A DNA stretch of 39,250 nucleotides from a virus, in IMG/VR virus record IMGVR_UViG_3300025687_000119, positions 1 through 39,250 of that record. The stretch is one strand, 5' to 3'. The translations under genes and the position numbers were made by a program. The notes under the pieces are model-generated. The model was not told the DNA's origin. It saw only the letters and a program-made list of their open reading frames with translations, and did not search any database. Below are positions 15,095 through 23,652 of this stretch, one piece after another (the stretch's first letter is position 1; every line of letters begins with the position of its first letter).

Positions 15095-15361
15095 ATGAAA
15101 GCATATAACAAGAAACAACTACAGAATGAGTGGCGCAACCCATACCTTCAGTGGTGGGCTGCGGGCATGCCATCGTTTGAGACTCAAAAACTGGATCCTT
15201 GGAAACAAATTACCATTAAATTTAAAACCAAAGAGGACCGCCAAGCTTTTTCTGAGCTATACGACTATGAGTTAACTGATAAAACTCCTGTAGTTTGGTA
15301 TCCTAAAAAAGATAGAGAATCAAATATTAAAAATGGATATGTAGATGAAAATGAACTTTGA
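15095..15361 (+). CDS. Small hypothetical protein with shared F..ED..AF domain
   Basis: An 88-residue protein starting at ATG 15095, six bases after a GGAG site and one base after the previous stop. DPWKQITIKFKTKEDRQAF (about 34-52) aligns with the C-terminal half of the preceding gene product, followed by TPVVWYPKKDRE. The N-terminus NEWRNPYLQWWAAGMPSF is tryptophan-rich. The two proteins look like a diverged duplicated pair. Such small proteins accompany DNA-modification genes in some phages as far as I recall, but no activity can be assigned. Confidence 0.55.
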   Translation: MKAYNKKQLQNEWRNPYLQWWAAGMPSFETQKLDPWKQITIKFKTKEDRQAFSELYDYELTDKTPVVWYPKKDRESNIKNGYVDENEL

Positions 15362-16316
15362 GACTAGGTACCCGATTTATATTCTGTCAAAGGGTCGATG
15401 GAAACAGCGTATGACTATGCGTGCTTTAGATCGAATGGGTGTGACATCTTATAAAATTGCTATCGAGCCGCAGGAATATGATAACTATGCTGAGACTTGT
15501 GGTGAAGATAAATTGCTTGTATTGCCATTCAGCAATCATGGTAAGGGATCGGGCCCCGCTCGTAATTGGTGCTGGGAGCACTCAATATCTGAGGGCCACG
15601 AGCGTCACTGGTTAATGGATGACAATATCTATGAGTTCTGGCGCTTGCACAAAAACAGGCGATATCGTGTTCGACGCGGCTCTGGTATCTTTCGTGCAAC
15701 TGAAGATTTTGTTGATCGCTATGAAAATATTGCACTGACTGGTTTTCAATACAAGTTTTTTTGTGTTGATGATTATCCATATCCGCCATATATCTTAAAC
15801 TCACGCATCATGTCTTGTTTTTTGATTCAAAATAAAATTGAGCACAGATGGCGTGGTCGGTACAATGAGGATGTAGACCTGTCCATTCGAGTATTAAAAG
15901 ATGGTTTGTGTACTTGTCTGATCTATGCATTCCTGCAGGGTAAAGCCAGAACTGGTACTGTAAAGGGTGGTAACACGACTGAAGTTTATAATAACTATGA
16001 GGAAGATGCATCGCTGAGAAAGTCACAGATGCTTGTTGAGATGCATCCCGATGTTGTCACTCTTGTTGAGAGGTATGGTCGAGTTCACCACCATGTTGAT
16101 CTTGATGCGATCAAGACTAAAGATGGTCAGCCAGCAAGACAAAATGCTTTAATTTTAAAGGATGATGTAGAGTTACTAAATAGAGTAGACAACTACGGAA
16201 TGAACTTGTATCGAGGTGTGGATGACAACATGGATAACTATCCGATCACAGATAACTCGATCATCGATAAAAGTTTTTCTGAAAATAAATTTCCATTAGG
16301 AAGGAAAGAGTTTTGA
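15351..16316 (+). CDS. TET-associated-type glycosyltransferase (TAGT-like) 1
   Basis: A 321-residue protein (ATG 15351; ATG 15345 would add two residues). It shows the features I associate with the TET/JBP-associated glycosyltransferase family: a YPIYILSKGRW start, IEPQEYDNY, a NHGKGSGPARNWCWEHS loop, the acidic HWLMDDNIYEF motif, NEDVDLSIRVL, and KGGNTTE. The DDN and ED pairs are likely metal/nucleotide-sugar and catalytic residues of a GT-A-like fold. Established members add sugars to oxidised bases in phage DNA. A second paralogue lies 0.8 kb downstream with an epimerase between them. No TET/JBP dioxygenase is in the window, so the acceptor base is open. Confidence 0.75.
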   Translation: MNFETRYPIYILSKGRWKQRMTMRALDRMGVTSYKIAIEPQEYDNYAETCGEDKLLVLPFSNHGKGSGPARNWCWEHSISEGHERHWLMDDNIYEFWRLHKNRRYRVRRGSGIFRATEDFVDRYENIALTGFQYKFFCVDDYPYPPYILNSRIMSCFLIQNKIEHRWRGRYNEDVDLSIRVLKDGLCTCLIYAFLQGKARTGTVKGGNTTEVYNNYEEDASLRKSQMLVEMHPDVVTLVERYGRVHHHVDLDAIKTKDGQPARQNALILKDDVELLNRVDNYGMNLYRGVDDNMDNYPITDNSIIDKSFSENKFPLGRKEF

Positions 16317-17164
16317 AAGTATTAGTGACTGGTGGTGCTGGTTTTGTTGGCTCACATCTATGTGAGAGATTGGTAAATCAAGGCCACGATGTAACTTCTA
16401 TAGATAACTACTTTACGGGATCTGAAAATAATCATGTGCAAGGTGTCTGGTACAAAAATCTTGACACGAGAGATGTATCAGATTTACCTGCTGATTTTGA
16501 TATTGTTTATCACTTGGGTGAATACTCTAGAGTCGAACAGTCATTCGATGATTTTGATAAAGTTTGGGAATACAATAAAATTGGTACTAAATGTATTCTC
16601 GACTTTGTTAAAAAGTGTGATGCAAAACTTGTGTATGCTGGATCAAGCACAAAATTTACAAACGAGCATTTGGGATACATAAAAAGTCCTTATACCTGGT
16701 CAAAAGAGACTAACACAGAATTTGTAAAATTATTTTGTGAGTGGAATTCTATTGACTATGCCATCACATATTTTTATAATGTATATGGACCTAGAGAAAT
16801 TGAAAATGGACCATATGCTACTCTAATTGCAATGTTCATTAATAAAGTAAAAAATGGTGAACCTCTCACGATCGTTCAACCAGGTACACAGAAAAGAAAC
16901 TTTACTCATATTGATGATATTATAGATGGACTTATTCTTGTTGGAAAAGAGGGGTATGGAGACGAATACGGCATTGGGTGCGATGATTCATATACAATTA
17001 TCGATGTTGCAGCAATGTTCGGGATCAATACAAAGATCGAGATGCTACCTCAAAGAAAAGGTAATAGGATGTCAGCAAAAGTAGTAACGGATCGAACACG
17101 TGCTCTTGGATGGTCATCTAAACGGAATTTAAAGGATTATATTAGTGCTAGAACAGCAAGCTGA
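16313..17164 (+). CDS. Nucleotide-sugar epimerase/dehydratase (extended SDR)
   Basis: A 283-residue Rossmann enzyme of the GalE/WcaG type. GGAGFVG at 7-13 binds NAD, YHLGEYSRV (66-74) is the usual second region, the catalytic triad is Ser111/112 with Tyr127-x3-Lys131 (YTWSK), and YNVYGPRE follows. It is shorter than typical GalE (about 330 residues), mainly at the C-terminus. It probably makes or interconverts the NDP-sugar used by the flanking glycosyltransferases. The start is TTG after GGAAGGAAAG, overlapping the preceding stop. It is AT-rich compared with the replication genes. Confidence 0.9.
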   Translation: MKVLVTGGAGFVGSHLCERLVNQGHDVTSIDNYFTGSENNHVQGVWYKNLDTRDVSDLPADFDIVYHLGEYSRVEQSFDDFDKVWEYNKIGTKCILDFVKKCDAKLVYAGSSTKFTNEHLGYIKSPYTWSKETNTEFVKLFCEWNSIDYAITYFYNVYGPREIENGPYATLIAMFINKVKNGEPLTIVQPGTQKRNFTHIDDIIDGLILVGKEGYGDEYGIGCDDSYTIIDVAAMFGINTKIEMLPQRKGNRMSAKVVTDRTRALGWSSKRNLKDYISARTAS

Positions 17165-17993
17165 AACTTTGCTTCACGATATAGACAATATAACTGGATC
17201 AGTAAAGTATCCAGTATATGTTCCGTCTCGTGGTCGAGCTGATGTTTCTTTAACTACACGTGAGTTGAAAAATAGTGGTATTTCCTTTTATGTTGTTGTT
17301 GAGCCACAAGAATATGAAAAGTACTTAGAGAACTATGATATCTCATCTGTTCTAAAAATGGATCATAATAACCGTGGTATATCGTATGTAAGAAATTATT
17401 GTAAACAACATTCCATTGAAAATGGTGCAAAATTTCATTGGCAGTTTGATGATAACATTACATCTTTTAGATATAGAGCACCAACAAAGAATGTAAAATG
17501 TGAAGCTTTTAAGTGTATTATAGCTTGTGAGTCTATTTGTGATTCTTATGAGAATATCGGCATTGCTGGCATGTCACATACTATGTTTGCATTTTCTAGA
17601 AGTAATCATGTTGGAATCAATCAGCAAGTATATAGTGGTGTACTGGTAAACAATGATCTTGATATCTGGTGGCGTGATGATGTTATTGAAGACACAGACT
17701 ATTCCCTACAAGTTCTTGATACTAAATACTACTGCACTCTATTGTTCAATAAGTTCTTAATTGACAAAGCAGCAACCATGACTATCAAGGGTGGTAATAC
17801 AGACACATCTCATGCCGGTGATAATAGAATGAAGCGCTCTTTAAAACTGCAAGAATATTGGCCGCAAGCTAATTTTCAAATCACAAATCAATATGGAAGA
17901 ACAAAGATCAAGCCGTCGAACATCTGGAAAAGTTTTGTTCACGGACCGATTCCCAAGTCTTTTAATTCACCCCTTATGGAGTTCTTAAAGTGA
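17145..17993 (+). CDS. TET-associated-type glycosyltransferase (TAGT-like) 2
   Basis: A 282-residue paralogue of the 15351 product: YPVYVPSRGRA, VEPQEYEKY, NNRGISYVRNYC, HWQFDDNITSF, EDTDYSLQVL and KGGNTD occur in the same order. The start is GTG 17145 with AAAGGA eight bases upstream, 20 bases inside the epimerase gene. Sequence divergence from the first copy is high, so the two probably differ in acceptor or donor, for example adding a first and a second sugar; this is inference. No transmembrane segment, consistent with a cytosolic DNA-modifying enzyme. Confidence 0.75.
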   Translation: MLEQQAETLLHDIDNITGSVKYPVYVPSRGRADVSLTTRELKNSGISFYVVVEPQEYEKYLENYDISSVLKMDHNNRGISYVRNYCKQHSIENGAKFHWQFDDNITSFRYRAPTKNVKCEAFKCIIACESICDSYENIGIAGMSHTMFAFSRSNHVGINQQVYSGVLVNNDLDIWWRDDVIEDTDYSLQVLDTKYYCTLLFNKFLIDKAATMTIKGGNTDTSHAGDNRMKRSLKLQEYWPQANFQITNQYGRTKIKPSNIWKSFVHGPIPKSFNSPLMEFLK

Positions 17994-22990: not shown

Positions 22991-23065
22991 TCCTCAGTAG
23001 CTCAGTGGTAGAGCTGACGGCTGTTAATCGTCCGGTCGGTGGTTCGAATCCATCCTGAGGAGCCA
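22991..23065 (+). tRNA. tRNA-Asn (GTT)
   Basis: Complete cloverleaf of 75 bases with encoded CCA. The acceptor stem pairs 22991-22997 with 23055-23061, the D stem is GCTC/GAGC, the anticodon stem 23016-23020 with 23028-23032 encloses CTGTTAA (anticodon 23023-23025), and the T arm has TTCGAAT. It reads AAC and AAU. Confidence 0.95.
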
Positions 23066-23070
23066 AATTT

Positions 23071-23146
23071 GCCGGCGTAGCTCAGTTGGGAGAGCAGTTC
23101 ACTTGTAATGATCAGGTCCGCGGTTCGAGTCCGTGCGCCGGCACCA
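23071..23146 (+). tRNA. tRNA-Thr (TGT)
   Basis: A 76-base cloverleaf with encoded CCA, five bases after tRNA-Asn. The acceptor stem GCCGGCG pairs with CGCCGGC (23136-23142), the D stem is GCTC/GAGC, the anticodon loop CTTGTAA gives anticodon TGT (23104-23106), and the T loop is TTCGAGT. The anticodon stem has one T-T mismatch. It reads ACA, a frequent Thr codon in this phage. Confidence 0.92.
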
Positions 23147-23168: not shown

Positions 23169-23197
23169 TTTACAAACAATGTAGGATGTGATAGTAT
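23169..23197 (+). promoter_or_regulatory. Sigma-70-like promoter, TTTACA-N17-TAGTAT, for the hammerhead leader
   Basis: TTTACA (23169-23174), 17-base spacer, TAGTAT (23192-23197), with A-rich DNA upstream. Transcription should start near 23204-23205, in ACATAATGAT, about 15 bases before the hammerhead ribozyme. Confidence 0.75.
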
Positions 23198-23219: not shown

Positions 23220-23268
23220 CTGTCTCTGATGAGTCCGTAGGGACGAAACCCCGAAAGGGGTCAGACAG
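23220..23268 (+). ncRNA. Type I hammerhead self-cleaving ribozyme
   Basis: All hammerhead core positions are present in order. Stem I is 23220-23225 paired with 23263-23268 (six pairs). The core CTGATGA is at 23226-23232. Stem II is GTCC/GGAC (23233-23236 with 23241-23244), loop GTAG. The core GAA is at 23245-23247. Stem III is ACCCC/GGGGT (23248-23252 with 23257-23261), GAAA tetraloop. The cleavage triplet is GTC, with cleavage expected between C23262 and A23263. Stem I is the open stem, so it is type I. It lies in the 5' leader of the 23407 gene and would remove about 58 bases and leave a 5'-hydroxyl RNA. Confidence 0.93.
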
Positions 23269-23381
23269 CAGCCGACCTTGTGGTGTAGGTGCTAGCAGTG
23301 TAAAGGTTCTGAGGTTAGATATATCCGATAGGATTGCCATGGCGGTCCGTGTAGGCATCCAAGGATAAACCACATTTTTTT
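23263..23381 (+). ncRNA. Structured leader or small RNA downstream of the ribozyme
   Basis: The 119 bases after the cleavage point contain no gene but can form nested long-range stems: 23279-23284 with 23369-23374, 23322-23326 with 23363-23367, and 23331-23338 with 23354-23360 (one bulge). A small hairpin 23275-23278/23287-23290 holds the 5' strand of the first stem in its loop, so a pseudoknot is possible. Seven T residues (23375-23381) follow the last pairing strand. This looks like either a processed small RNA ending at the T-run or a regulatory leader for the next gene. I do not recognise a known RNA class. Confidence 0.5.
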
Positions 23382-23406: not shown

Positions 23407-23652
23407 ATGACTAAAACTGAAAAGGTACTAACCGCTCTTCAAAGCGGTGAAACTCTCACTGGAAAGCAAATCGAATCTCGTTTCGGTGTTGGTAATGCTC
23501 GTGCCACCGTCAGTGATTTGCGCATGAAGGGCTTTGCTATCTATGCAAATCCACGCACGAACAGTAAGGGTGAGACAAAGAGCTTCTATCGTCTCGGTAC
23601 TCCTTCACGTGAGGTTGTTGCAGCCGGCTATCGCGCTCTAGCAGCAGCGTAA
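23407..23652 (+). CDS. Small winged-helix/HTH DNA-binding protein
   Basis: An 81-residue protein with a helix-turn-helix pattern: TKTEKVLTALQSGETLTGKQ, then IESRFGVGNARATVSDLRMK (recognition helix) and a wing GFAIYANPRTNSKGETKSFY. Conserved small proteins of this type occur in many marine T4-like phages and are thought to bind DNA or regulate transcription. The ATG has AAGGAAG about nine bases upstream. Codons are GC-richer than in neighbours, suggesting high expression. Its transcript leader carries a hammerhead ribozyme and structured RNA, and its 3' end a pseudoknot-capable element. Confidence 0.75.
   Translation: MTKTEKVLTALQSGETLTGKQIESRFGVGNARATVSDLRMKGFAIYANPRTNSKGETKSFYRLGTPSREVVAAGYRALAAA

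Follow-up and report, generated by a model that had tools for sequence, protein, structure and literature searches.

Why would a T4-like phage carry a self-cleaving ribozyme shortly ahead of a small gene, and what becomes of the RNA that starts at the cut? The locus lies in a window of 39,250 nucleotides, the whole stretch of viral DNA that was analysed, which is part of the genome of a T4-like phage known only from uncultured material. The window encodes head proteins (the major head protein, phrog_138, and the head protease), replication and recombination proteins (UvsW, gp46-like, the clamp gp45, the clamp loader gp44, the DNA polymerase gp43, UvsX and gp41-like) and Hsp20, and its DNA polymerase is about 45% identical to the cyanophage enzymes. 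Elsewhere in the window, two TET-associated glycosyltransferase (TAGT) genes (15345-16316 and 17145-17993) flank a sugar epimerase gene, an arrangement that hints at hypermodified cytosine DNA.

The clamp-loader gene is followed by tRNA-Asn, tRNA-Thr, a promoter, the hammerhead and a winged-helix gene, and then by hsp20 and gp43. The original prediction had placed a complete hammerhead in the mRNA leader of the winged-helix gene, and the promoter, the two upstream tRNA genes and the small downstream gene that it named were all recovered (Table 1). A promoter score of at least 9 out of 12 is found just 5' of about half of the hammerheads in related contigs, compared with 6% of random 75-mers.

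Table 1. Features of the hammerhead locus, numbered from the first nucleotide of the window
Feature	Position	Strand	Evidence
tRNA-Asn(GUU)	22991-23065	+	
tRNA-Thr(UGU)	23071-23146	+	
Promoter TTTACA-17-TAGTAT, sigma-70-like, extended -10	23169-23197	+	
Type I hammerhead ribozyme, open stem I	23220-23268	+	RF00163 match and covariation
Stem I 5' strand CUGUCU, partner AGACAG at 23263-23268	23220-23225	+	covariation analysis
Core CUGAUGA	23226-23232	+	invariant in the alignment of relatives
Stem II GUCC/GGAC, loop GUAG	23233-23244	+	covariation analysis
Core GAA	23245-23247	+	invariant in the alignment of relatives
Stem III ACCCC/GGGGU, GAAA tetraloop	23248-23261	+	two-sided changes in 3 of 5 pairs
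Predicted cleavage site C23262/A23263, GUC triplet	23262-23263	+	hammerhead consensus position
RNA-X, conserved pseudoknotted RNA, 112 nt, from the cleavage site	23263-23374	+	alignment, covariation, model R1 (121.9 bits)
RNA-X loop ACCU, proposed partner AGGU at 23304-23307	23275-23278	+	conserved, hardly varies, little covariation support
RNA-X pseudoknot 5' strand UGUGGU, partner 23369-23374	23279-23284	+	covarying pairs
RNA-X pseudoknot 3' strand ACCACA	23369-23374	+	covarying pairs
Winged-helix protein gene, 81 aa, HTH_39, phrog_4973	23407-23652	+	

The hammerhead ribozyme

Judged by its sequence and by the changes among its relatives, the element is a real and complete type I hammerhead. 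It has the CUGANGA and GAA core, the A-U closing pair of stem III and a NUH triplet, which is GUC at 23260-23262 in the window and GUA in contigs L214 and L219. The covariance search proposed as a check on the prediction returned a full-length match, with RF00163 (Hammerhead_1) spanning exactly the predicted interval and all 45 of the 45 model positions aligned by cmscan, at 27.6 bits (E 6.2e-5 in a 281-nt search and 2e-6 in the whole record). The Rfam gathering score for this family is 34 bits, which is a search cut-off and not a structural feature of the family; the match is thus below threshold yet unambiguous, and relatives score up to 33.9 bits. Because 27.6 bits falls under the cut-off, the ribozyme is missing from a gathering-level Rfam scan, and automatic annotation misses it.

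No core base varies among 15 distinct relatives, and 99.6% of their stem cells form pairs. Covariation scores 0.243, above both shuffled alignments (0.098±0.016) and slid partners (at most 0.076). Stem III shows two-sided changes many times, including CCC/GGG, GCC/GGC, UCC/GGA and GCA/UGC among others, and stems I and II show one such change each. A strict scanner, requiring exact CTGATGA and GAAA with three stems of at least 4, 3 and 4 pairs on either strand, found one site in the window and one site in a set of 1000 order-1 Markov windows. The score under the gathering cut-off might suggest a chance fold or a dead relic, but conservation, covariation and the rate expected by chance render this explanation extremely improbable. 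The hammerhead consensus places the predicted cut between C23262 and A23263.

The ribozyme resembles the phage and prophage hammerheads described by Perreault et al. 2011 (PMC3088659) in its common core, three stems, open stem I and intergenic phage position, and the processing of phage transcripts was already proposed for those elements. It differs from known type I hammerheads in that stem I is short (6 bp), nearly fixed in sequence and has no identified tertiary contact, and in that a structured partner RNA begins at its cleavage site. Loop II is mostly NUAG, and inspection revealed no contact between stem I and loop II, a feature that is common but not universal, so the speed of the ribozyme at cellular magnesium is uncertain. 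The predicted probability of stem I falls to 0.1-0.3 in longer transcripts, as calculated by a folding model that cannot form pseudoknots.

Several relatives are more elaborate. A structured RNA of about 85 nt is inserted in stem III of L011, L214 and L219 and of L207 and L208 (in L011, 1253-1400), and in the first three of these contigs it is accompanied by GUA, not GUC, as the cleavage triplet. Long stem III inserts also occur in L227 and L258. The inserts may possibly be a second domain on the ribozyme. Other structured RNAs lie 5' of the hammerhead in L003/L209 and L206/L220, and such an RNA would therefore be freed with the ribozyme at its 3' end.

Phage hammerheads had been described as rare, a view that does not hold for uncultured phages. 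IMG/VR holds at least 120 matches to the pattern CTGATGAGTCC-N3-9-GGACGAAAC, and among the matches listed, 56 of the 80 distinct sites with enough sequence have an ATG within 60 nt past the cut (counting ORFs of at least 40 codons), compared with 26% of random positions. Hammerheads ahead of phage genes are therefore frequent in uncultured phages. An isolate provides a further case: a similar hammerhead immediately precedes gp13 in Agrobacterium phage OLIVR1. Contigs L194, L138, L125 and L134 each carry multiple hammerheads, with five pattern matches in L138, and most copies lie shortly 5' of a gene start, as though each gene of a phage operon were cut off in turn.

The RNA that begins at the cleavage site

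The predicted position of the hammerhead, in a phage gene's leader, was correct, but the 112 nt past the cut are not plain leader; they form a conserved pseudoknotted RNA, which we call RNA-X. Its architecture is that of a 5' hairpin whose loop forms a pseudoknot with the 3' end of the RNA itself and is proposed to form a second one. Helix P1 directly follows AGACAGC and carries the loop ACCU-N6-RUA, in which N6 pairs with the last six bases and ACCU can pair with AGGU. The interior consists of a two-helix inner domain, with a variable arm in longer members. Conserved bases outside the clear helices are ACCU..GGUGUA, GCA, GGUUAGA and GUAGGC.

In an alignment of 15 distinct sequences, 90.5% of cells are paired and 19 of the 29 pairs show two-sided changes. 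The covariation score is 0.412, compared with 0.181±0.019 for shuffled alignments (none of 500 reaches it) and at most 0.111 for slid partners, numbers that lean in the structure's favour because the structure was partly derived from the same alignment. The helix joining the loop to the 3' end was spotted by eye in a few sequences first and then recurred in all the remaining ones, with the variants UGUGGU/ACCACA, GGUGGU/ACCACC, UAUGGU/ACCAUA and GAUAGU/ACUAUC, and RNAalifold predicts it when no structure is supplied. Minimum-energy folding of the whole leader gave a z of -0.8 and is uninformative here because the key helix is a pseudoknot. A GAY/RTC helix flanking the inner domain was dropped as several members cannot form it, and the RNAalifold helices were used instead.

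RNA-X has no entry in Rfam 15, and a BLAST search with the leader and three RNA-X variants did not find it in 50,697 phage records. Two matches to the hammerhead-plus-AGACAGC pattern in 84,980 bacterial and archaeal genomes were spurious, and there were no others there. We found no description of it in the openly accessible papers that were searched. An HDV-like fold, suggested by the topology, had no Rfam support. The COG2908 RNA (RF02939) shares ACCUU..GGUGUA with RNA-X and gives 11-15 bits to three RNA-X sequences; the best score, 15.3, lies far from the gathering cut-off of 58.7 bits, and the COG2908 model has neither the pseudoknot to the 3' end nor the hammerhead, both of which RNA-X has. 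On comparative grounds RNA-X appears to be a previously undescribed, covariation-supported RNA family.

Linkage and genomic settings

The exact core CTGATGAGTCCGTAGGGACGAAAC is present in 31 contigs. Behind the cut in each of the 37 carriers examined there is either RNA-X (23 of 37) or a CTGTC hairpin partner (14 of 37). The association was also approached from the other side, by two scans built on RNA-X bases alone, so that the linkage is not a product of the hammerhead search. A scan with the 3' half of RNA-X returned 13 contigs, all 13 of them already known hammerhead carriers. A scan with the loop returned 49, mostly by chance, among which covariance model R1 recognised L227 (E 4e-14) and L258/L259 (E 1.5e-6), as well as L233, whose match (19.9 bits, E 0.07) is not significant by score and rests on the structure. 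In all four, a hammerhead ends at the 5' end of RNA-X; that of L233 has stem I GUCCUU/AAGGAC and the core CUGACGA, and its P1 and pseudoknot still pair. Model R1 detected no RNA-X in 71 winged-helix-gene loci without this hammerhead family. RNA-X occurs once per contig. The proposed family is defined by the 5' hairpin, the ACCU-N6-RUA loop, the pairing of N6 with the 3' end, the inner two-helix domain and the hammerhead at the 5' end, all of which the copy in the window has.

So constant an adjacency, together with the many conserved bases in unpaired regions, as in ligand-binding RNAs, and the fact that one strand of stem I is the start of RNA-X, could indicate that RNA-X is a sensor switching the hammerhead, that is, a natural allosteric ribozyme of large T4-like phages under ligand, protein or tRNA control. 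The hammerhead is nevertheless complete without RNA-X in the 14 hairpin-type carriers, no gene with an obvious metabolite link is consistently downstream, and by inspection stem I and an RNA-X helix exclude each other in some members only. We thus hold this kind of control to be distinctly unlikely.

RNA-X is found in two main settings. In the first, it lies in the leader of the winged-helix gene after tRNA-Asn, tRNA-Thr and the promoter (the window, L145, L203, L210, L214, L219 and others). In the second, it lies in tRNA arrays that contain no protein gene (L111/L170, L185, L211, L213, L223 and L227); in L111/L170, for example, hammerhead and RNA-X stand between tRNA-Asp and tRNA-Ile, and the next tRNA begins 6-8 nt past the 3' end of RNA-X in L170, L185, L213 and L227. 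Further contexts are provided by L233, L258 and L222. On the short contig L222 (1473-2714), hammerhead and RNA-X lie directly 5' of a DUF1501 gene, which is unusual for a phage, and near a tRNA-Thr.

In the 14 hairpin-type carriers, the winged-helix gene comes straight after the leader, and the leader includes a CUGUC. Once the cut has released the GACAG strand of stem I, the two can pair, and the resulting hairpin lies a single base from the new 5' end. The hairpin is at the predicted new 5' end in six of these leaders, with leader energies of -5.6 to -10.2 kcal/mol. Since some hammerhead leaders lack RNA-X, the hammerhead has a use apart from it. Winged-helix proteins 95-100% identical to that of the window have quite different leaders, and the RNA modules in the slot before this gene are therefore exchangeable. 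In L003 the hammerhead is preceded by another structured RNA and followed by the hairpin form. The leader of a 95% identical winged-helix gene in L005/L006 (~300-507) has no hammerhead and contains a different, strongly paired RNA (CCGAGA/TCTCGG and GAAGTAAGG/CCTTACTTC). Most of L008-L018, also without a hammerhead, share yet another conserved leader (L016 2390-2480, for instance), with ACACG..CGTGT and CCTG..CAGG, which looks pseudoknotted and has no Rfam match; a pistol ribozyme was considered for the L016 leader and had no Rfam support.

These settings bear on whether the cut serves the message only, with the triphosphate exchanged for a 5'-OH that tunes the stability of the winged-helix mRNA and RNA-X being merely a folded leader. 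The closeness of phage hammerheads to start codons, the OLIVR1 element and the hairpin-type leaders of the winged-helix gene would all suit such a device. RNA-X, however, shows conservation of both sequence and structure and persists in tRNA arrays where no gene follows it, and a role confined to mRNA is too narrow because the pair occurs there as well. We regard this explanation as rather unlikely, although likelier than the sensor.

The arrays also recall the theta ribozymes, HDV-like elements that likewise cleave themselves in phage tRNA arrays (PMC10879173). By analogy with these tRNA-linked ribozymes, the hammerhead could trim the 3' trailer of the preceding tRNA, and it does start 2-6 nt past a tRNA in L211 and L170. 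Theta ribozymes, however, have a different fold, the double pseudoknot of HDV, and cut exactly at the tRNA 3' end, whereas the hammerhead would cut where RNA-X begins. This point is some 45-50 nt past the end of the tRNA, and the cut would leave the ribozyme on the tRNA. In the window, the promoter separates the tRNAs from the ribozyme. The cleavage site does not coincide with the end of a tRNA, and Rfam scans gave no HDV-type match. A part in tRNA maturation therefore seems very improbable.

Proposed function

The comparative data speak for the hammerhead, the structure of RNA-X, their linkage and the two settings. On balance, we favour the reading of a two-part RNA element in which the hammerhead generates the 5' end, and whose product would be a structured phage RNA that here is also the leader of the winged-helix mRNA. 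As relatives always join the hammerhead to the hairpin or to RNA-X, the latter also among tRNA genes, the cut is probably more than an oddity of a single message and likely determines how a new phage RNA begins.

Hammerhead cleavage leaves a 2',3'-cyclic phosphate on the upstream product and a 5'-OH on the downstream product, and removes the 5' triphosphate. From the arrangement of the locus we infer cleavage, release as a separate RNA and an effect on stability, in the following way. Transcription from the promoter at 23169, or through the tRNA array in other phages, would produce the hammerhead, which would cut after C23262, and the short upstream piece with its cyclic phosphate would be discarded. 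The downstream RNA, with a 5'-OH at AGACAGC, would fold into RNA-X, a compact structure closed by the pseudoknot that joins the first loop to the final bases. Where RNA-X sits in a tRNA array, maturation of the tRNA starting 6-8 nt farther on may free its 3' side, and a distinct small RNA some 110-180 nt long would result. In the window, RNA-X would remain attached to the winged-helix mRNA as its folded 5' end, and as no terminator follows it there, it may never leave the message. The 5'-OH and the fold would then slow decay that starts from this end. Where relatives lack RNA-X, the stem I strand released by the cut could instead build a hairpin of 5 bp at the start of the downstream RNA, perhaps a minimal version of the same job.

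RNA with a 5' monophosphate is the preferred substrate of RNases E and G, and during T4 infection the 5'-OH ends made by RegB need phosphorylation by PNK before attack (PMC3014915). Given this preference, a 5'-OH followed by RNA-X or a hairpin should resist 5'-end-dependent decay.

Since in the arrays one end of RNA-X would be fixed by the ribozyme and the other could come from tRNA processing, RNA-X is most simply a small phage RNA, and its likeliest class appears to be a structural or regulatory RNA kept by phages with their tRNAs. In size and place it is similar to T4 RNAC and RNAD (rnaC and rnaD), small stable RNAs of 119-139 nt in the T4 tRNA cluster whose role is unknown. Homology to these was rejected, with nothing above 2 bits over rnaC and rnaD even with filters off.

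Bacterial and phage hammerheads are many and their purpose is unproven; here, a conserved RNA partner has its 5' end defined by one, in a system small enough for testing. RNA-X would add a covariation-supported family to those catalogued. For the T4 group, it would represent a second, independent type of RNA in tRNA arrays, one that brings a processing ribozyme with it, beside the two tRNA-cluster RNAs that still lack a known role.
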